From Pseudobdellovibrionaceae bacterium (GTDB taxonomy: Bacteria; Bdellovibrionota; Bdellovibrionia; Bdellovibrionales; Bdellovibrionaceae), in NCBI GenBank assembly GCA_013359135.1, contig JABWCN010000022.1:62001-126000 (forward strand): 64,000 bases of DNA. The letters run 5' to 3'. The translations under genes and the position numbers were made by a program. The notes under the pieces were generated by a model. It was not told the origin of the DNA and searched no databases. It saw only the letters and a program-made list of their open reading frames with translations. Shown in pieces: positions 1 through 60,580 of this stretch; position 1 is the stretch's first letter, and each line of letters begins with the position of its first letter.

Positions 1-16
1 ATATATTTTTTCATTT

Positions 17-427
17 TTAATGACGTAACTCTCTAATTGCCTCATTGATGATTAAGATTGTTTCCATGTCGCTTTTTTTGCAAACTTCAGGATGTATGCA
101 CATAGTATATGAAGATTTGATGTGATTAGATGAACTAAATATTTTGATAGTTAGTAGCGGAATTTGTTCACATTTCTTTTTATCACTGGCTAACAACAAT
201 TTATAGAGCTCATTTGTCTGATGATCAAATTCCTCTTTTTGATCGAAATAGATCCCACGAGAGGGCGATGAATGAAGAGACAAACTAGTCAGAATACTTG
301 TAATTTTATCTTCACAAAAATCACCGCCATTAAGTCGTCCTTGAGAAAACGATTTAATAGATATACAAAATCCTAGAAGAGAAAATATTAATGCTTTGTG
401 TATAAAATTCTCATGATATTTTTTCAT
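17..427 (-). CDS. small exported protein paired with TIGR02147-type regulator
   Basis: Start chosen at 427, where an SD-like GAAGGG precedes ATG; longer in-frame starts lack one. About 136 residues. A Lys-containing N-terminus and hydrophobic stretch (about residues 8-24, ALIFSLLGFCISI) form a likely Sec signal peptide ending near SFSQ. The mature protein begins with an NGGD motif followed by FCED and holds several Cys. The NGGD start recalls exported Bdellovibrio proteins with a GNGGD motif; that is recalled family knowledge, not a search. Its start overlaps the 3' end of the upstream regulator gene by 17 nt, so the two are probably translationally coupled. Function unknown. Confidence 0.6.
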   Translation of the reverse strand: MKKYHENFIHKALIFSLLGFCISIKSFSQGRLNGGDFCEDKITSILTSLSLHSSPSRGIYFDQKEEFDHQTNELYKLLLASDKKKCEQIPLLTIKIFSSSNHIKSSYTMCIHPEVCKKSDMETILIINEAIRELRH

Positions 428-1211
428 AAGCCCTTCGTTTTTTTGTTCTAGGGTATAACTGAATAGCAAGTTCATAGACCTCTGAAGTTTCAGCATTTTC
501 TACAAGCTCACGAATTTCTAAATGAAAATTGCGAATTTTTTCTTTAATCAGTTCCATTTGATTCATGTCAAAGGGAATACATATTGAGGTAAAATCTCTC
601 TCAAGAACAGGGTCTGATAAAAGAGAATTTCTAGCTTGTTTTAATGATTCACAATGAGCTCTTTGGATTGACAAATCGGTCTTATCATCAGTTGTACAAA
701 TAAAGTCTTTTATCTTTATAAGTTTTCCATCTTTTTCTTGTATAAGTTCAAGAGTTTTAAGTCTTGTGATGACCAGTTTTATTTTTTCCTCTGTCACTCC
801 AAGTTTCCCTGCGATCCATGAAATATCATTACGGAAGTATTTAGTCTGTATCAATGCTAATAAATCAAAATAAATAGCTTCAGATAAAAAATCAAAATTT
901 TTTGAAGATAAAAAGCTGACTTTACGAATTTTTATTTTGTTATCATCTTCGGTTTCATTCAGTAGGGCATTTCTTTCTGTTGGATTTAGTTTTAAGTTTT
1001 TTGATATTTTTATACATTGCTTTTTTGTTAGAGTTCTTTTTCCATTAAAAATTTCAGATAAAGCTCCAGAGCTGATTCCACACTTGATAGCAAAAGAGCG
1101 CAGAGAAAATTGAGGATTCATCAGTTTTATTTCATCATATTTATGTCTTAACAGGAGGTATGCTTTTCTATTCATACTAATAGGTTTTTGCATTTTATGG
1201 GCCAAATACAT
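411..1211 (-). CDS. TIGR02147 family putative transcriptional regulator
   Basis: About 266 residues. An N-terminal helix-turn-helix-like segment (roughly residues 35-65: SLRSFAIKCGISSGALSEIF, then NGKRTLTKK) is followed by a winged-helix-like middle part and the conserved C-terminal region typical of TIGR02147 proteins (acidic helix, then YELAIQLYPRTK). This family is abundant in Bdellovibrionota and Fibrobacteres and is presumed to bind DNA. The start is uncertain: 1211, 1193 and 1175 are all ATG codons without a clear ribosome site. The gene overlaps the small exported protein downstream. A second protein of the same family, with the same kind of partner, lies at 57433-58263. Confidence 0.8.
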   Translation of the reverse strand: MYLAHKMQKPISMNRKAYLLLRHKYDEIKLMNPQFSLRSFAIKCGISSGALSEIFNGKRTLTKKQCIKISKNLKLNPTERNALLNETEDDNKIKIRKVSFLSSKNFDFLSEAIYFDLLALIQTKYFRNDISWIAGKLGVTEEKIKLVITRLKTLELIQEKDGKLIKIKDFICTTDDKTDLSIQRAHCESLKQARNSLLSDPVLERDFTSICIPFDMNQMELIKEKIRNFHLEIRELVENAETSEVYELAIQLYPRTKKRRAYEKIS

Positions 1212-2442: not shown

Positions 2443-2928
2443 TAAGAGTGCTGCTGTGTAGTTTGGTTCGTTTACAATGTCAGAAACTTGCTCTGTGTAA
2501 AGTACCTGATTGTCCTCGGAAAGAACAATTACACAACGAGAAAGAAGGCCTGCTAGAGGGGAGTCCAGTATAACAATTCCATAATCTTGTCCAAATCGAC
2601 TGCGAAAAGCTGAAAGAGTTTCACAGTTTTTAATTCCTTCTGCACCACAAAATCGTGTTTGAGCAAATGGTAAGTCAGCAGATATATTTAAAACCACTGT
2701 GTTGTGCAGTTGAGCCGCTTCTTGATTAAATCTTCTTACCGAGGCAGCACAGGTTCCAGTATCGATACTTGGGAAAACATTAAGTACCTTTTTTTTTCCA
2801 AAATAATTTTGTAAGCTCACCTCGGAAAGATCTGATTTTACTAGTTTAAAGTCTTTAGCGATAGTAGCTTTTTCAGGAAGAGTTCCTGAAGTGTGAACAG
2901 GATTTCCTTTGAGAGTGATATTTGCCAT
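2431..2928 (-). CDS. tpx: thiol peroxidase (atypical 2-Cys peroxiredoxin)
   Basis: 165 residues, the usual Tpx length, and very similar throughout to E. coli Tpx as I recall it. The peroxidatic Cys60 lies in FPSIDTGTCAASVRRFN and the resolving Cys94 in FAQTRFCGAEG. The enzyme reduces hydrogen peroxide and alkyl hydroperoxides using thioredoxin. A strong site (AAAGGAGA) lies 5-6 nt before the ATG. It is monocistronic and convergent with namA. An extra Cys follows the resolving Cys (KNCETL) where many homologues have Val. Function is confidently assigned. Confidence 0.96.
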   Translation of the reverse strand: MANITLKGNPVHTSGTLPEKATIAKDFKLVKSDLSEVSLQNYFGKKKVLNVFPSIDTGTCAASVRRFNQEAAQLHNTVVLNISADLPFAQTRFCGAEGIKNCETLSAFRSRFGQDYGIVILDSPLAGLLSRCVIVLSEDNQVLYTEQVSDIVNEPNYTAALLALK

Positions 2929-2985
2929 GTGTCTCCTTTGTTATGTGTATGTGAATTGAAGTTGTAGGTCACAAAAAATAAAAAA

Positions 2986-3516
2986 CTAAGACTTCTGAGC
3001 TTTAATAGTTAAACTAGAAATATAAGTTTCTGGCAGCCCGGCTTGTTTAGCTCCACTGATCAAGGCTTTTATAAAAACATCACTGACAGGCCCAGCCGTG
3101 CTTGATCTTGTAGGTGATGTTACGAAAGCCGTAGCTTCAATTTCATTTTGATTAACTTGAACTTTGATTGCCCTTTCGATCGACATTCCTGTAACCACTC
3201 CTTCTTTGTGTTGAACTACAGGCCAATCCTTAGAGGGAATCTCAAAAAGAAGTCCAAAGACAGAACTTCCTTCTTGATCAACTAGTCCTGCAACTCGACC
3301 TCCCCACCAACGAGAAGGAAAGTCAAAGACAAGATCTACGTTCCTAGCTTCGGCGACCTGTCCTTGAGGTAATTGGAAGAAGTGATAGCTATGTTCCTCT
3401 TTCCATTGTTCAAAAGCCTCACGGTCTAAAACTCCAGAATAGGCAAAGTACCATCTGGTTCCTTGATCAGTGATTGCATTTCTAGCGTCCATAACTTTAT
3501 AATAATGAGCATCCAT
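2986..3516 (-). CDS. gamma-glutamylcyclotransferase-like protein
   Basis: 176 residues. After a short lead, WYFAYSGVLDREAFEQW resembles the YFAYGSNL substrate loop of the GGCT/AIG2 fold, and the sequence then follows the expected beta-rich pattern (VDLVFDFPS, WWGGRVAGLVDQEGSSVFGLLFEI). The canonical Gly-Ser of the loop is altered to Ser-Gly, and the catalytic Glu is not obvious. It could be a degenerate cyclotransferase or a protein acting on another gamma-glutamyl compound. It stands alone between tpx and a divergent lipoprotein gene. The start at 3516 lacks a strong ribosome site. Confidence 0.65.
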   Translation of the reverse strand: MDAHYYKVMDARNAITDQGTRWYFAYSGVLDREAFEQWKEEHSYHFFQLPQGQVAEARNVDLVFDFPSRWWGGRVAGLVDQEGSSVFGLLFEIPSKDWPVVQHKEGVVTGMSIERAIKVQVNQNEIEATAFVTSPTRSSTAGPVSDVFIKALISGAKQAGLPETYISSLTIKAQKS

Positions 3517-3633
3517 GTAAACAAAGTAGCATAAGGAAATTTAAAGTTCAATGGGTCAGTCTGTCTCTGCTATAAAACAGTTACTGTGTGATATGACTTT
3601 TGAGCATGCATGGATTTATACTTTGGAGGAATC

Positions 3634-4488
3634 ATGTGCATTTATTTAAGGCAAAATAATATTAAAAAAGACAAAATTGTTGGATTTTTATTACTTCTAT
3701 TCATAATAGCTGTGATTCAAGGGTGCAGTTCGGCAGGTAAAGATATTCATTTTAGATCCCGTCTACCAACACAAGAATCACCTTTAATTAGTTTTGACAA
3801 GGAAAGTCTTTTTGGATTCGAGATGGATGCTGAAAGTTCTCGTTATACGTTTCAACCGACGAACGATTTAGTAACTAATTATAATTTAAATAATGAAACA
3901 AGCTATTTTTCCTCGGAGGGCTCTGTCAATGGATTTGATTTATCTTTAAATTATAGGAAAGCCTATGAGCCAATTTATTTTAAAGGTAATCTTGGATTAG
4001 ATTTTCTGGAGCTTCAGATAAATCCAAGTTCCATAATAGGTCTAACGGGTCCTTGGTTTGTTAATTTTAACGTGGGGGTCTATAAAACAAGTGCTTATGT
4101 TAGTACTTCCTCAAGCAGTTGCAACTTTATTTGCTTTTCAACAGACAGAGCTACAGATCAGTTAAAAGAAAATGAGATCAAAACTTCGCAATCAGGATCC
4201 GAGAAGAAAATAGGTGGATTAATTGGATATAAATTTTCTGAAAAGAATCTGCTTACAATTTCCTATCAGTGGATGGATTATGCAGTTAGCGCTTCGGTTT
4301 CAAAAAATGGAATGGCAGATTTGAGTTTAAATGAAAGGTACTACGCCTCAGGTTATGGTTTAGGAGTTTTTAATGAACTTTCTCTAAGATCAACCCTAGG
4401 GCTAACTGTCGACTATGTTCAAATGCATTTACGAAAAAAGACAGATAGACAAACTGTTTTAGGTGCAAGAATGCTGGTGGGATTTTAG
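3634..4488 (+). CDS. lipoprotein, probable outer-membrane beta-barrel
   Basis: Start chosen at the ATG at 3634, which follows GGAGGA closely; an in-frame ATG at 3610 has no such site. The N-terminus is basic, then hydrophobic (GFLLLLFIIAVIQGCSS) with a lipobox ending at Cys, so it is probably lipidated. The rest alternates polar and hydrophobic residues with many Tyr, Gly and Ser, and ends in MLVGF with a terminal Phe, a feature of BAM-inserted barrels. A Cys pair sits in a loop (SCNFICFS). No enzymatic motif seen and family not recognised. Isolated gene. Confidence 0.6.
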   Translation: MCIYLRQNNIKKDKIVGFLLLLFIIAVIQGCSSAGKDIHFRSRLPTQESPLISFDKESLFGFEMDAESSRYTFQPTNDLVTNYNLNNETSYFSSEGSVNGFDLSLNYRKAYEPIYFKGNLGLDFLELQINPSSIIGLTGPWFVNFNVGVYKTSAYVSTSSSSCNFICFSTDRATDQLKENEIKTSQSGSEKKIGGLIGYKFSEKNLLTISYQWMDYAVSASVSKNGMADLSLNERYYASGYGLGVFNELSLRSTLGLTVDYVQMHLRKKTDRQTVLGARMLVGF

Positions 4489-50425: not shown

Positions 50426-52597
50426 TTAATGTCGTAATTTTGGAATATCCCAAATAAAAATTTGATTCCAGTAATTTTTGATCAAACTTCCACGGAAAAA
50501 CACCTTCTCATTAGTTATAAAGCCTAGTTCGTTTATAGTAGGGGTGTCGTTAAGAGCAGTATATACTTCTATAGGAGGAAGCTGCTCCGAGGGAATAAGA
50601 TAGATTCTTCCATTAATATTGAGTAAAATATTTTTTTCATCTTCAGAAATTGATGCTATTTGTGGTTGTACTGATAAACTAATACTTGAATTTTTTTTAA
50701 GATAAGTTACTGATTCTTGTGATAAAGCAAGTTTGTTGATGAGTTGACAAGAGTTCTCTGAGGAATCATAGAGATAGATATTGTAATTATTAACTGTTGA
50801 ATTGGCAAGGACTAGGGTTTTTTTATTACTTAAAGGTATTCTTATTAGAAGATTTTCTTCGTAAGAACAGAGTAAATTTTGTAAATTCGATAATTGGTTT
50901 TTTGCATAGTTCATATAACTCGCGTTTAAAGAGTTTTTAAAATAATTCATTGTCTCTAAAACTGAGCCTAAAGAGTTATTTTCTATATTATAAAATAAAA
51001 TAGAGGGAATCTGATCAGAAGTTCTGACCCCACTATAGACTTCAATGACTGGCAGGTCATTATTAGTAAATAATATGGCATGCTCACTTAATTTTTTTGA
51101 GAAAATAACTTTTTCAGATTCTAAATCCAAAACTATAAACAAAAACTTACTGATTTGTGGACTGTTCGTAGCGACCAAAGCTAAATATTTATCATTTTTG
51201 AATTGCCATTGACTATTCATTTTTATTCCAAAACTGAGCTTATATTCTGAGCCTAATACTTCACTTAGGTCCCACTTGTGTCTGCCTTTTCCCTGTAGAT
51301 CTGATACCCATAAATCAATTGTTACAAAACCAACGGAATAAATGACTTTATTATACTTGTAAGAAACTTCAAAATACCTAACTTCTTCATCTGCAGCAAA
51401 AATATCTTGATTGATTTGGGTAATATTACCAGTTTTTAGGTCTACCATCTTGAGCCATGACTCAATGTCACTCCCGATTTCTTGTGAACCATCCAGGTAA
51501 TAAATTTTATCACTTTGAGGGCTTATATTAAAAAAATTATCAATACTTTGAGCAAAATCGACCAACTTGCTGTTGAGGAGCCTTAAAGGTGAAGTCATAT
51601 TGCTTAGATCTTTATGGTAAAGTTGATAAGCTTTGTCCCCAGTCAATTGGGCTTTAAGGAAAATATTTTTCCTTAAACTGTCGAATTGAAATTTTGCTAC
51701 ACCATTAGCCTCAGTAACATTTTCAACTAAAATTTCTTTTGTACCATCAATAGCACTTATTCTTTCAAGACGATTTACTGCCAATGGAGCTAAACCACTT
51801 AACCCTTCGCTTAGATAAAACTTCCTGACAGATGGATCCCACTCGGCTTGTACATAGTTTTCATAATTAATGACTTTGGCTGGCCATAAACGAGCGTCAA
51901 GATATCCCCCTAAGCGGCACTGTAGTTTTTGGTCTCTACTTGAAAAACTCAGACGATTTAGTTGCCCTATGAAAGTACCAGGTTTCAAACCTTTATTGCT
52001 TTTATCAATAATTAAATCAAAAGCATTTGAAGTTAATTTTACTGATTGTACACTTGTTATCCTTGCAGGATTAGTCTCTGTTTGCTTTACACTGTTTGGA
52101 AAATAAAATTCACTTTCTGCTTTTTTGTTTTTTAAATCATAATAGCTTAGAATTTCGAGTGATGGATTTTCCCATTGATCTACGCACCAAATTTCTACTA
52201 TTTTCTGCGGTATAGTGGAAATATTTTTATTTCCTGATTCAAAAATTTTTTCTTCATAGCCAAGTACTTTGTTTTGCAAATTTCCAAAATCTAGTTTTGA
52301 GTTTGACAGTTGCTGGTCTATAGATAAACATTGGTTTTCTTGGCTTTGGTAATAAATTGAGTTTGAGCTGGGGTAATATTCAATTTTTGAAAAAGCAGAA
52401 TATTGATTTTCACATTTATAATCTGGTATGTAGTGATAAAAGGTGCCACCAATTTTTCCGCCATATCCAGTGCCATTGTCAGCAGTGCTAGACTCCGAAT
52501 TGCTTCCAGATTTTAGACCTATTTCTCCAATATCAGAACAGTTCTGAAATCCTAATATTAAAAAAGCTAATATAAAGAAAACAATAGGAAGCTTCAT
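50426..52597 (-). CDS. large lipoprotein of unknown function
   Basis: About 723 residues from ATG 52597 (52606 also possible). The signal KLPIVFFILAFLILGFQNCSD contains a lipobox with Cys, in a form (FQNCS) common in Bdellovibrionota lipoproteins. After a Ser/Gly linker the protein is a run of beta-strand segments of about 40-60 residues with Asp/Ser-rich turns (DKIYYLDGSQEIG, NNLPVIEVYSGVRTSD, DEKNILLNINGRIYLIPSEQ), compatible with a TolB/YVTN-type beta-propeller. No catalytic motif seen. Monocistronic. Confidence 0.55.
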   Translation of the reverse strand: MKLPIVFFILAFLILGFQNCSDIGEIGLKSGSNSESSTADNGTGYGGKIGGTFYHYIPDYKCENQYSAFSKIEYYPSSNSIYYQSQENQCLSIDQQLSNSKLDFGNLQNKVLGYEEKIFESGNKNISTIPQKIVEIWCVDQWENPSLEILSYYDLKNKKAESEFYFPNSVKQTETNPARITSVQSVKLTSNAFDLIIDKSNKGLKPGTFIGQLNRLSFSSRDQKLQCRLGGYLDARLWPAKVINYENYVQAEWDPSVRKFYLSEGLSGLAPLAVNRLERISAIDGTKEILVENVTEANGVAKFQFDSLRKNIFLKAQLTGDKAYQLYHKDLSNMTSPLRLLNSKLVDFAQSIDNFFNISPQSDKIYYLDGSQEIGSDIESWLKMVDLKTGNITQINQDIFAADEEVRYFEVSYKYNKVIYSVGFVTIDLWVSDLQGKGRHKWDLSEVLGSEYKLSFGIKMNSQWQFKNDKYLALVATNSPQISKFLFIVLDLESEKVIFSKKLSEHAILFTNNDLPVIEVYSGVRTSDQIPSILFYNIENNSLGSVLETMNYFKNSLNASYMNYAKNQLSNLQNLLCSYEENLLIRIPLSNKKTLVLANSTVNNYNIYLYDSSENSCQLINKLALSQESVTYLKKNSSISLSVQPQIASISEDEKNILLNINGRIYLIPSEQLPPIEVYTALNDTPTINELGFITNEKVFFRGSLIKNYWNQIFIWDIPKLRH

Positions 52598-52709
52598 TAC
52601 TCTCATATCCTCAGTCTACCACAAATTTCTTAAAGTATTTTATTTTTTTAAAGGCTAAGTAGACCTTTTTGTGTCTTAAAATAAGATTTCATTGAAAATT
52701 GTATATTTT

Positions 52710-55949: not shown

Positions 55950-56486
55950 TTATATGCAGCTGAGCCAGGCATCAGTGGCAACTCCCGAGGGTAGTTTTCC
56001 ATTTTCTACAGCATCAAAAAGACTTGTTTTTTCATTTATATAACCGTTAATAGCCTCAGTGCTTGAGAAAATCACTGTCGAGCTAGTGCTATTTAATGAG
56101 GTGTAGATGTCTTGACTTCCACCAACTGACAAAACAGTTATATGACCTAGTGAACTTTCGCGTCGAAAATGACCTGCTAATTTTATAACTCCATTTTCAT
56201 TGAAAACGGTAAAAACAATTTTATATCCATGATTAAATTTTATAACTCCATAACTAAATCGTTTATCATTAGATGTTAGATTGGTGGTTGTAACTGGTTC
56301 TGAAAGTTCGTAAATATATTCCGCCCGTGGGTGGCCATTGGCATTTAAATGTAGTTGATTGAGAACAACTTTTTTGATTTGTCCACTGCATTTAAAAAAA
56401 TTATTTTCACTTGCTGAAGCTGAATTTACACAAACTAACCCAGTTAAAATTGTAAGCAAAAACGTACTTAAAAAAATGTTTATCAT
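55950..56486 (-). CDS. exported hypothetical protein, third gene of TIGR02147 operon
   Basis: Start at ATG 56486, overlapping the upstream stop (ATGA), with AGGAG about 9 nt before it. 178 residues. The signal MINIFLSTFLLTILTGLVCVNSASA ends in ASA. Beta-rich mature protein with two Cys near the ends (FKCSGQ, WLSCI), possibly a disulfide. No family recognised. It belongs to the operon with the regulator (57433-58263) and its exported partner. Confidence 0.6.
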   Translation of the reverse strand: MINIFLSTFLLTILTGLVCVNSASASENNFFKCSGQIKKVVLNQLHLNANGHPRAEYIYELSEPVTTTNLTSNDKRFSYGVIKFNHGYKIVFTVFNENGVIKLAGHFRRESSLGHITVLSVGGSQDIYTSLNSTSSTVIFSSTEAINGYINEKTSLFDAVENGKLPSGVATDAWLSCI

Positions 56487-57436
56487 TTGCAATTTTCTCC
56501 TAAAGTTAAAGGTTTAAGGCAGATCCCTGTTATTGCATTCCCACTGTCACCAACTGCATTACATGGGATGAAGCCAGTCGTAATTTGAGCGTCCAGTAGC
56601 TTATGGAAAGCTTCCTGAATCGTTTGTCCATAAAAAATAAGTTGTTGTGTATCCTTCTTGTAAAATTTAGAGGAACCCTTAAAAAGGGGCGTATAAGCGG
56701 TGGCTTGACAAATATATTTACGTGCAGAGAGTTTAATCTCTGCAATGAAATTTTTAATTGCCCTGTCTCTTTCGTCATTTGAAATTTTTTTCAAAAGAAT
56801 TTTTTCTAAAAATTTTCGAACCGGTTTGGAGTTAACTCCTAGTTGCCTACGAACTAAAGTATAAAAAGCTTCGTGGACTCTCAAAATTTTCTTTTGTCCA
56901 GATGAGAGTTTATTGGTATTTGAAAGGTTTTGATACATTTCTATATTATTGCCATTTCTTTCTTGTGCAGCTGCTTGTTCGAGTATGCATGCTGGCGGAA
57001 GATTATAAATTAGATTATGATCTTCAATAATTTTTAGGTCAACTCTAGTCTAGCTGGATACTTCGCCAATAGAATGAAGTGTTTGTTCAAGCCAATTTCC
57101 TATTTTAAGATTTTCAAAAAGTTCTAGGTCATCATAATCTAATTGAAAACCATTGAGTCTTTGTATTAGAATTTTTTCAAAATCATTACTTTCAGGGTCT
57201 AGAAGTAAATTCTGATGTTGAGCTCTAACCAAGGCATTATAATAATCAAGTGTTACTGACGAGTGTCCCTTGCAAGAAACGATATGCCCACCACCAACAC
57301 CTTCACTACCATGAGAAAGCAAAACGCTTTCGTTGATTCGTTGGATGAGTGTTGGATTATTTTTTTGTGTCACTAAATTTTGAGCAAGTACAAATGTAGT
57401 TCCACTGAATAAGGCAGTTATTAAAAGCATCTTCAT
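56483..57436 (-). pseudogene. exported partner of TIGR02147 regulator, interrupted by in-frame TAG
   Basis: ATG 57436 overlaps the regulator stop (ATGA). Signal MKMLLITALFSGTTFVLAQN, then EGVGGGHIVSCKG, a variant of the GNGGD-type motif. The frame reaches a TAG at 57052-57050 (codon 129) and then continues open in the same frame for 188 more codons: TRVDLKIIEDHNLIYNLPPA, CILEQAAAQ, RVHEAFYTLVRRQLGVNS and so on to 56483. The LPxxCxxEQ and HEAxY blocks after the stop are, from memory, typical of the C-terminal part of this Bdellovibrionota family, so both halves belong to one protein of about 317 residues. A 151-residue reading from ATG 56938 is only its tail. Confidence 0.75.
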
Positions 57437-58263
57437 AAATTCTCCTGTTTTTTTGAAATTGGATAAAGTTGTATTCCTAAGTTATAAACTTGAGTTTGTT
57501 CGCCATTTTCAAGAAGTGCACACATTTCACGTCGATACTTACGAGTTAGCTCCCGTGCTTTATCAAGTTTTGAGATATCAATTGCCATCGTCATAGAAGT
57601 GATATCTTTATCTTCCGCTGAGCATTCATCAACAGCTAAAAGAGCTTTTTCAATGACTTGTTTTTGAAATTCTTTGTGAGCTGTGCTTGTATTTGCATTT
57701 GAATGATTTGTAAGAAATTTGGATGATTTAACTAAGGTTCCATTTTCTTCTAATACAAGGCCCAGTCGTTTAAGTCTTTCAACAGCAGATTTGGCCTCTT
57801 CTGTAGTTATAGAAAGTTTTTTTGAAATCCATTTTGTATCAGTTTTAAACCCGGAGATATATGTGAGTTCTAAAATGGCATAGTGATACCATTCCGAAAT
57901 AACAGCAAAGTTATCTTGGGTGAGCTGTATATAATTTGGATCGGTAACTTGCTCTAGAGTCATTAATCCAAATGACTGCAAATCTTTGGGAGTTGCCAAT
58001 AGTTTTTGACAAATATTTTGTACATTTTTTTTAGAGAGTGGGCGTTTACCACTTAAAATTTGCGATAGTGATGACGGATCAATACATAAATACTTTGAAA
58101 ATGCGCGTAAAGAGTATCGAGGATTTCTTTTGCATCGTTCTGTAAATTGACGTTGAAGCCACAAACGAAAATTTAAACGTTCTTCATTGCTCTGAATTGT
58201 ATTTAATAATATTTTTCCTGTTTGCATACGGCGGATATTAGGGTATTTTATTTCGTTTATCAA
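57433..58263 (-). CDS. TIGR02147 family putative transcriptional regulator
   Basis: 276 residues from TTG 58263; ATG 58227 (MQTGKILLNTI) is an alternative, and neither has a good ribosome site. HTH-like segment RYSLRAFSKYLCIDPSSLSQ, then ILSGKRPLSKKNV; a middle winged-helix part (DTKWISKKLSITTEEAKSAV, then ERLKRLGLVLEENG); and a C-terminus with DITSMTMAIDISKLDKAREL and YNLGIQLYPISK. It is clearly paralogous to the protein at 411-1211 (shared ITSM/FTSI and xLAIQLYP blocks). It overlaps its exported partner by 4 nt, and a striking set of inverted repeats lies just upstream. Confidence 0.85.
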   Translation of the reverse strand: MINEIKYPNIRRMQTGKILLNTIQSNEERLNFRLWLQRQFTERCKRNPRYSLRAFSKYLCIDPSSLSQILSGKRPLSKKNVQNICQKLLATPKDLQSFGLMTLEQVTDPNYIQLTQDNFAVISEWYHYAILELTYISGFKTDTKWISKKLSITTEEAKSAVERLKRLGLVLEENGTLVKSSKFLTNHSNANTSTAHKEFQKQVIEKALLAVDECSAEDKDITSMTMAIDISKLDKARELTRKYRREMCALLENGEQTQVYNLGIQLYPISKKQENL

Positions 58264-58270
58264 TTTTCAT

Positions 58271-58300
58271 TGCCACAATGTGTGGCACCAGAGTGCCACA
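58271..58300. promoter_or_regulatory. triple TGCCACA palindrome upstream of TIGR02147 gene
   Basis: TGCCACA (58271-58277), its complement TGTGGCA (58281-58287) and a third TGCCACA (58294-58300) form two overlapping perfect inverted repeats: 7 bp with a 3-nt spacer and 8 bp (TGTGGCAC/GTGCCACA) with a 4-nt spacer. GC-rich in AT-rich surroundings, directly before the regulator start; a likely operator for autoregulation or an mRNA hairpin. Confidence 0.6.
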
Positions 58301-59431: not shown

Positions 59432-60580
59432 ATGAAAAAAAATAAATTAAAAAAAATTGCCTGTTTCATTTTGTTTTTAAATATAGCTTCTTGTTCTCGA
59501 CTTAAAACGGGTATTGTCGACAAAATGATGCCATCCCTATCATCAGGTACTTCTAATACTTGTAGTATTTCCTCGGCAGGTGAGTTGAAGTGTTGGGGGA
59601 CAAATTCTTATGGACAAATTGGCGATGGAACAACCAGCACCAGTAATGTTCCTCTCGCTGCAGACATAGGAACAAACTACAGGCAAATTGATATAACTTA
59701 TTATAGTGCTTGTGGAATTACAACGACAGATGTTCTGAAATGTTGGGGTTTCAATAGTAATGGTCAGGTTGGAAATGGCAGTTTGACATCTCAACCAACA
59801 CCAACTGTCATCGATCAGACAGAAAAGTATTCTTTTGTTGATAAAGGAACTACAACCACTTGCGGGATCACAACAACAGGAAGTTTAAAATGTTGGGGTG
59901 GAAATTCTTATGGACAAATTGGCGATGGGACAACGGTAGATCGTTCGTCTCCAACAATTGTAGATTCGGGGACCATTTATTCATCTGTTTCTAGTGGAAC
60001 TTATCATACCTGTGGGATCACCACAGCAGGTGTTTTGAAATGCTGGGGACGTAATACGTGGGGACAGTTAGGAGATGGAACAACTACAGATCTTTTATCT
60101 CCAACTGTGATAGATTCAGGAGTTTTTTATTCTCAGGTTTCTATGGGTAGGGGGTATAGCTGTGGCATTACTACAGCTGGTGTTTTAAAGTGCTGGGGGT
60201 ATAATGGTGTTGGTAATATCGGTAATGGGACAACTAGTAATCAACTTACACCTCAAGCGATTGATGAAACGATGAAATACAAGCAAATATCAACGGGCGA
60301 TGGTGGTCATACCTGTGGAATCACAACAACTGGTGTTTTGAAATGTTGGGGGTATAACAACCACGGTCAGATTGGAAATTCATCGACAACCAATCAATTA
60401 TCACCAGTGATAATTGATGAGGGTATTTCCTATTTAAGAATTTCTGGAGGCGCTTCACACACCTGTGGGATCACCGCAGCAGGTATTTTAAAATGTTGGG
60501 GTGAAAACACTTCGAGTCAGTTAGGTGATGGAAGCACGACTGAAAAAACATCACCTAACGTGGTTAATTGGAATCCTTAA
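59432..60580 (+). CDS. RCC1-repeat lipoprotein
   Basis: 382 residues. The signal KIACFILFLNIASCSRLK has a lipobox. Seven RCC1-like repeats of about 50 residues follow, each with a CxI/TCGIT element, G-x-LKCWG, N-x-x-GQ-I/L-GDGTT and SP-x-x-x-D, so it should fold as a seven-bladed propeller. Each blade keeps two Cys (TCGIT and LKCWG), which could pair as disulfides. Likely a surface or periplasmic scaffold or adhesin. It is 11 bp after the broken barrel gene and probably in its operon. A hairpin follows the stop. Confidence 0.85.
   Translation: MKKNKLKKIACFILFLNIASCSRLKTGIVDKMMPSLSSGTSNTCSISSAGELKCWGTNSYGQIGDGTTSTSNVPLAADIGTNYRQIDITYYSACGITTTDVLKCWGFNSNGQVGNGSLTSQPTPTVIDQTEKYSFVDKGTTTTCGITTTGSLKCWGGNSYGQIGDGTTVDRSSPTIVDSGTIYSSVSSGTYHTCGITTAGVLKCWGRNTWGQLGDGTTTDLLSPTVIDSGVFYSQVSMGRGYSCGITTAGVLKCWGYNGVGNIGNGTTSNQLTPQAIDETMKYKQISTGDGGHTCGITTTGVLKCWGYNNHGQIGNSSTTNQLSPVIIDEGISYLRISGGASHTCGITAAGILKCWGENTSSQLGDGSTTEKTSPNVVNWNP

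Follow-up and report, generated by a model that had tools for sequence, protein, structure and literature searches.

Two loci in the window (the whole 64,000 nucleotide stretch of DNA that was analysed) encode a TIGR02147 regulator whose gene overlaps that of an exported protein, a shared design that was proposed in the first-pass annotation and is confirmed here by sequence, Pfam and NCBIfam. The same pairing is found across Bdellovibrionota genomes, together with overlaps between the paired genes, an N-terminal motif common to partners whose bodies show no detectable homology and, ahead of many regulator genes, palindromes that resemble operators. The usual coupling of this regulator, within one operon, to an exported protein with the tag suggests a hitherto undescribed family of control modules that are self-contained; no function has been described for the regulator family or for the exported proteins. 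Judging from gene order and sequence, we think it probable that these operons regulate themselves and that each controls a single exported product, with an N-terminal tag tied to the regulator.

At the first locus (A), the regulator gene (411-1211, reverse strand) encodes a Cro/CI-type helix-turn-helix (HTH) and a winged-helix-like DUF4423 region. The protein matches DUF4423 (E = 1e-33, 117 bits) and HTH_3 (E = 6e-5) in Pfam, and TIGR02147 in NCBIfam at 96 bits, passing the cut-off of 50. The gene for its exported partner (17-427, reverse strand; ATG at 427, stop at 17) overlaps it by 17 nt (411-427), and the start codon is preceded by a Shine-Dalgarno-like site, GAAGGG. The signal peptide is followed by GRLNGGDF, with the mature protein predicted to start at ...SFSQ-GRLNGGD; the codons of the Gly-Asn motif, GRLNGGD, lie at 320-340 on the reverse strand (sequence and motif model, score 11.2). 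This partner has a paralogue in locus L006 and relatives in L051 and L079. A third gene begins at window position 14 (1-14, reverse strand) and extends beyond the window; in full (G000:C43:60677-62014) it encodes a 445-aa exported protein with HHEAIPYY, and its homologue in the paralogous operon is found at L234:4760-6046. The profile of the large GNGG/HE partner family described below aligns weakly with this protein at its His-His-Glu motif, and there is no HE in the 159-aa ORF of partner A. A palindrome scan upstream of regulator A revealed none that stood out.

At the second locus (B), the regulator (57433-58263, reverse strand; start TTG at 58263 or ATG at 58227) has the same HTH_3 and DUF4423 regions and exceeds the curated cut-offs for DUF4423 (141 bits, Pfam) and TIGR02147 (121 bits, NCBIfam). 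Membership of TIGR02147, as first proposed, therefore holds for both regulators, at 96 and 121 bits. The closest homologue found for regulator B is in L053 (67% identical). The exported partner of regulator B (56483-57436, reverse strand) starts at ATG 57436 within a 4 nt overlap (ATGA) and, as for partner A, a Shine-Dalgarno-like site precedes the start; the overlaps of 17 and 4 nt are as first described. The 128-aa ORF seen in the first-pass annotation covers just the front of partner B, ending at an in-frame TAG (57050-57052, reverse strand) beyond which the frame runs on to 56483. The large partner family is matched by this frame on either side of the TAG, and the frame is recovered by a profile built from 13 relatives (E = 2.7e-4), in a match that contains one TAG; therefore either a nonsense codon breaks the gene or a base was misread. 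The family is well populated and intact relatives exist, and the TAG may be a recent nonsense mutation or an assembly error. The motif variant of partner B, EGVGGGH (57284-57304, reverse strand, score 9.1), has its GGGH about 28 residues beyond the predicted cleavage site, so that the earlier placement of the motif directly after the signal peptide is right for A and wrong for B. The partner in L053 likewise has its motif distant from the cleavage site, after a spacer even longer than in B. No HExxH zinc motif was found in partner B, which has HEAFY there, and a structure model built on two or three aligned sequences was of unusable quality (pLDDT 32). A small exported protein is encoded by the third gene (55950-56486, reverse strand; ATG at 56486), which overlaps the partner frame by 4 nt. 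The description as a two-gene module thus stands for the regulator/exported pairing and falls short in extent, as each locus has one more exported gene after the pair.

Regulator relatives were found in 109 of 119 genomes of the order, with up to 23 per genome. We surveyed the neighbours of 191 distinct regulators from Bdellovibrionota genomes, 158 of which have the next gene on the same strand. With signal peptides called by a home-made, crude rule rather than by SignalP, 137/158 of these next genes encode a signal peptide and 107/158 (68%) encode, in addition, the Gly-Asn motif close to where cleavage is predicted, against 12/243 other genes in the loci (Fisher p about 2e-43). The corresponding figures were 7/94 for the divergent upstream gene and 14/95 for the same-strand upstream gene. 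Many of the genomes are related, which inflates the counts, and these are therefore not independent events. An overlap of exactly 4 nt was found in 65/137 pairs (47%), compared with 28/419 other adjacent pairs (7%), which supports the coupling suggested by the two window loci. Counting against the reading as self-regulated operons, no motif partner was recognised in the next gene for about one third of the regulators that have such a gene on their own strand, and a few motif-bearing exported proteins with no regulator nearby were found in L298, L305 and L315.

The regulator profile used (A1) was built from six regulators of the source genome, four of them paired, a bias that was avoided in searches with TIGR02147 and with the motif itself. 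Taking the best TIGR02147 match per genome across the phylum, with neighbours ignored, pairing was seen by eye in 22/30, distant classes included. A DNA pattern for GxExGNGG, searched in 99 genomes, gave about 29 exported carriers with the motif near the start, and a regulator lies upstream in 23 of them (19 by script, 4 classified by hand); among 34 other in-frame matches, including Obg and repeat proteins, the regulator was beside none. Moreover, a search of Bdellovibrio bacteriovorus kdesi with the large-family profile returned five family genes. Each has a DUF4423 gene nearby, which it follows immediately in four cases and at a distance of about 700 bp in the fifth. Chance adjacency is excluded by the neighbour counts, the motif-first search and the overlap control. 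The first-pass annotation's idea of a repeated module is thereby strongly supported, and the neighbour statistics proposed as its check proved far above random. A Desulfobacterales match in the scan for relatives was spurious.

When compared from 35 residues past the cleavage site onward, the 158 downstream proteins fall into 64 clusters. The lack of shared homology among partners, which the first-pass annotation had named as grounds for refutation, is thus observed in an unexpected form: most bodies show no detectable homology, and yet the N-terminal motif recurs across clusters. This is approximately G-[GTQ]-[ED]-[VTI]-G-[NH]-[GPA]-[GKD], mostly 0-6 residues after cleavage. Models trained on half of the clusters recognised 38/57 and 55/80 held-out partners at a 5% background rate, and 11/57 and 46/80 at a stricter 1% rate. 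The codons of the motif vary freely, which places the constraint on the protein and makes conservation at the RNA level unlikely. Regulators that are 60-75% identical have partners about 41% identical, which makes the regulator the more conserved of the two. Since the cargo is interchangeable and yet usually keeps the motif, the motif probably has a function of its own, linked to the regulator.

The partners include peptidase-like proteins, DUF4360 proteins, lipoproteins (one of 146 aa), two HELGH proteins and very short proteins. The largest cluster is marked by GNGG, a Cys, LDLYEA, IPDxG and AALILHExIYRE; the members tested match no Pfam family, and a PDB sequence search with the partner profile gave nothing credible. 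It is conceivable that each locus simply joins an ordinary local regulator to an exported enzyme, the motif being a structural leftover of one diverged ancestral family, a reading we regard as unlikely. In its favour, the largest family keeps an invariant His-Glu and weakly matches a metallopeptidase model (PhageMetallopep, 8/37 partner sequences), and HELGH occurs in two partners, so that some of the diversity could reflect deep divergence of one fold. Against it, DUF4360 partners, the 146-aa lipoprotein and a 71-aa protein are unlikely to have that fold, and a structural role would not readily account for motif copies that repeat. Compared with zincin metallopeptidases, the large family has its His-Glu in an AALILHExIYRE context, and HELGH or HExxH is present in a small number of partners or third genes; HExxH was not found in the large family, where HE is invariant within an HExxYR-like sequence and the second zinc-binding His is replaced.

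The motif stands at the mature N-terminus of signal-peptidase I partners and lipoprotein partners alike, as would suit a sorting or surface-anchoring signal, with DUF4423 regulators controlling that class of protein in response to outside cues. We consider this possible, if somewhat doubtful. The few motif carriers without a regulator fit it as well. Against it, the motif is usually missing from the other exported gene of an operon: of 52 operons with a pair of exported genes, 37 have it on the first alone, 5 on both, 3 on the second alone and 7 on neither. It is also rare among background exported proteins, about 6% of which score above the same motif threshold, and a general sorting signal would be expected on many unlinked proteins. 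Among the 19 signal-peptide genes in the window, the motif was found in the two regulator-linked proteins and, more weakly, in a 726-aa lipoprotein. The motif tracks the regulator, not the cargo, and mostly one gene per operon bears it; for this reason we think that it has a functional link to regulation. A CASxHPG lipoprotein of about 220 aa lies between the regulator and the motif protein in L102, L108, L123, L125, L126 and L070, which span several genera.

In the 120 nt upstream, palindromes scoring at least 8 were found for 41/190 regulators, compared with 7% of other genes and 2% of shuffles. A recurring form, NNN-ACA-N3-TGT-N'N'N', was found for 17/191 regulators and in 6/642 non-overlapping control regions (p = 2e-7). 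In one group, two copies lie 28 nt apart, with arms that are the same within a locus and different between loci (CGGGACA, CGAAACA), and the WYDRGNGG group of Bdellovibrio has GGTAATTACC-like sites instead. Upstream of regulator B is TGCCACA-N3-TGTGGCA (58271-58287), the sole exact site in the 3.84-Mb genome, with none at one mismatch; a second, overlapping palindrome, TGTGGCAC-TCTG-GTGCCACA, lies at 58281-58300. The 67% identical regulator in L053 is preceded by TGCCCCA-CAT-TGGGGCA, in which both arms are changed symmetrically relative to locus B. Such a pattern is what would be expected as the trace of a local autoregulator with its own operator.

Under the self-regulated operon reading, the cytosolic HTH and DUF4423 protein, presumably a dimer, would bind palindromes upstream of its own gene and so set the transcription of its operon, and translational coupling would tie the making of one exported protein to regulator synthesis. 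The exported product would be interchangeable, with the short Gly-Asn motif usually kept near the mature start. From these features and from what is known of HTH regulators we infer autoregulation, probably repression relieved by a signal; with less confidence, that signal might be whether the partner has been exported, or a fragment processed from its tagged N-terminus. For the exported partner, a role in signalling or sensing, as first proposed, may be envisaged. Structure prediction of the regulator from two or three aligned sequences was good for the HTH and poor for the C-terminal part, and a fold search returned generic HTH matches alone.

A sharper form of this explanation, and an attractive one, is that the regulator would sense the tagged N-terminus itself. 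The mature N-terminus of the partner, either processed and re-imported or read before export, would then be the pheromone-like ligand of DUF4423; we hold this tentatively and think it rather unlikely. The motif goes with the regulator rather than with the body and is usually on one gene per operon, and its similarity rises with regulator similarity even for partners of different clusters (0-1 of 2000 permutations), although common descent can also produce that correlation. Some partners consist of little beyond the motif, and several hold more than one copy of it. In L033, for example, the 71-aa ORF after the TIGR02147 gene encodes a signal peptide and two GTEVGNGGP copies, making it, by its sequence, the most peptide-precursor-like of the partners seen. 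On the other hand, most partners are of 130-690 aa with conserved domains of their own, the motif is near-alike across paralogues, such that specificity would be low, and the operons showed no linked peptide protease or importer. Its extension to a phylum-wide class, in which DUF4423 reads the Gly-Asn tag of its own partner, export state or density controls the operon and the tag is portable, appears to us equally speculative. The RRNPP systems (Rap-Phr, PlcR-PapR, Rgg-SHP, PrgX) offer a parallel, in that a cytosolic HTH regulator is accompanied by a coupled gene for an exported product, as in the DUF4423 modules. They differ in that a Pfam scan of the window regulators gave HTH_3 and DUF4423 and no TPR domain, and in that the DUF4423 partners are mostly full proteins; peptide processing and import would be putative for the DUF4423 modules.

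The HTH also resembles that of HigA-type antitoxins and restriction-modification control proteins, which share the likely autoregulation via palindromes; here there is an extra DUF4423 region, and an exported partner takes the place of the toxin. A toxin-antitoxin or defence module is nevertheless highly improbable, as the partner is exported, no toxin family among the partners was matched in Pfam, NCBIfam, PHROGs or PADLOC, and the PADLOC defence models gave weak HTH and other low-score matches to regulators and none to partners. Both readings were rejected after the PADLOC and PHROGs searches.

No published functional account of the module was found, nor any mention of TIGR02147 or relevant occurrence of the motif strings, in the literature searched, from which subscription journals were largely excluded. 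Both window regulators pass the curated cut-offs of TIGR02147/DUF4423 (PF14394) and have the N-terminal HTH of this family without described function, whose regular pairing with motif-bearing exported proteins was likewise not met with in that literature. Its only mention of DUF4423 concerns Bd3700, a DUF4423 protein for which higher abundance is reported when the cells grow inside prey (PMC12546842). A common tag on exported proteins that are otherwise unrelated, each paired with a separate regulator and often with a separate operator-like site, yields many testable predictions about how bacteria of the Bdellovibrio order control what goes outside the cell. Moreover, tag and regulator together provide a simple annotation rule for hundreds of hypothetical exported proteins.

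The source genome contains about 16 TIGR02147 genes. L006/L234 is the paralogous three-gene operon of locus A, the regulators being 50% identical, and L002/L231 is another example, with an NNGD partner followed by an HExxH peptidase-like protein. For several other regulators the exported gene, with a Gly-rich start, is divergent instead (e.g. L008/L236, L015/L243 and L005/L233). In the last of these (G000:C8:18000-29000), the DUF4423 regulator has a flagellin gene in the same orientation 182 nt downstream and, on its other side, the divergent gene, whose product bears GNGGY. In L238 (G000:C94:1-9000), two tandem regulator genes (2653-3902), the first one shortened, face, on the opposite strand, a GNSGE exported gene that seems to be broken; the whole looks like a decaying module. 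Elsewhere in the window, a large lipoprotein with a Gly-rich start, GYGGKIGGTFYHYIPDYKCE, is encoded at 50426-52606 and was not seen beside a DUF4423 gene; a 794-aa protein from another genome (L305; LGAELGNGGEYGG...YYRFVPDFTCE) resembles it, again with no DUF4423 gene seen adjoining. The window also encodes, at 59432-60580, a lipoprotein made of CWGxNxxGQxGDGT repeats (RCC1-like).
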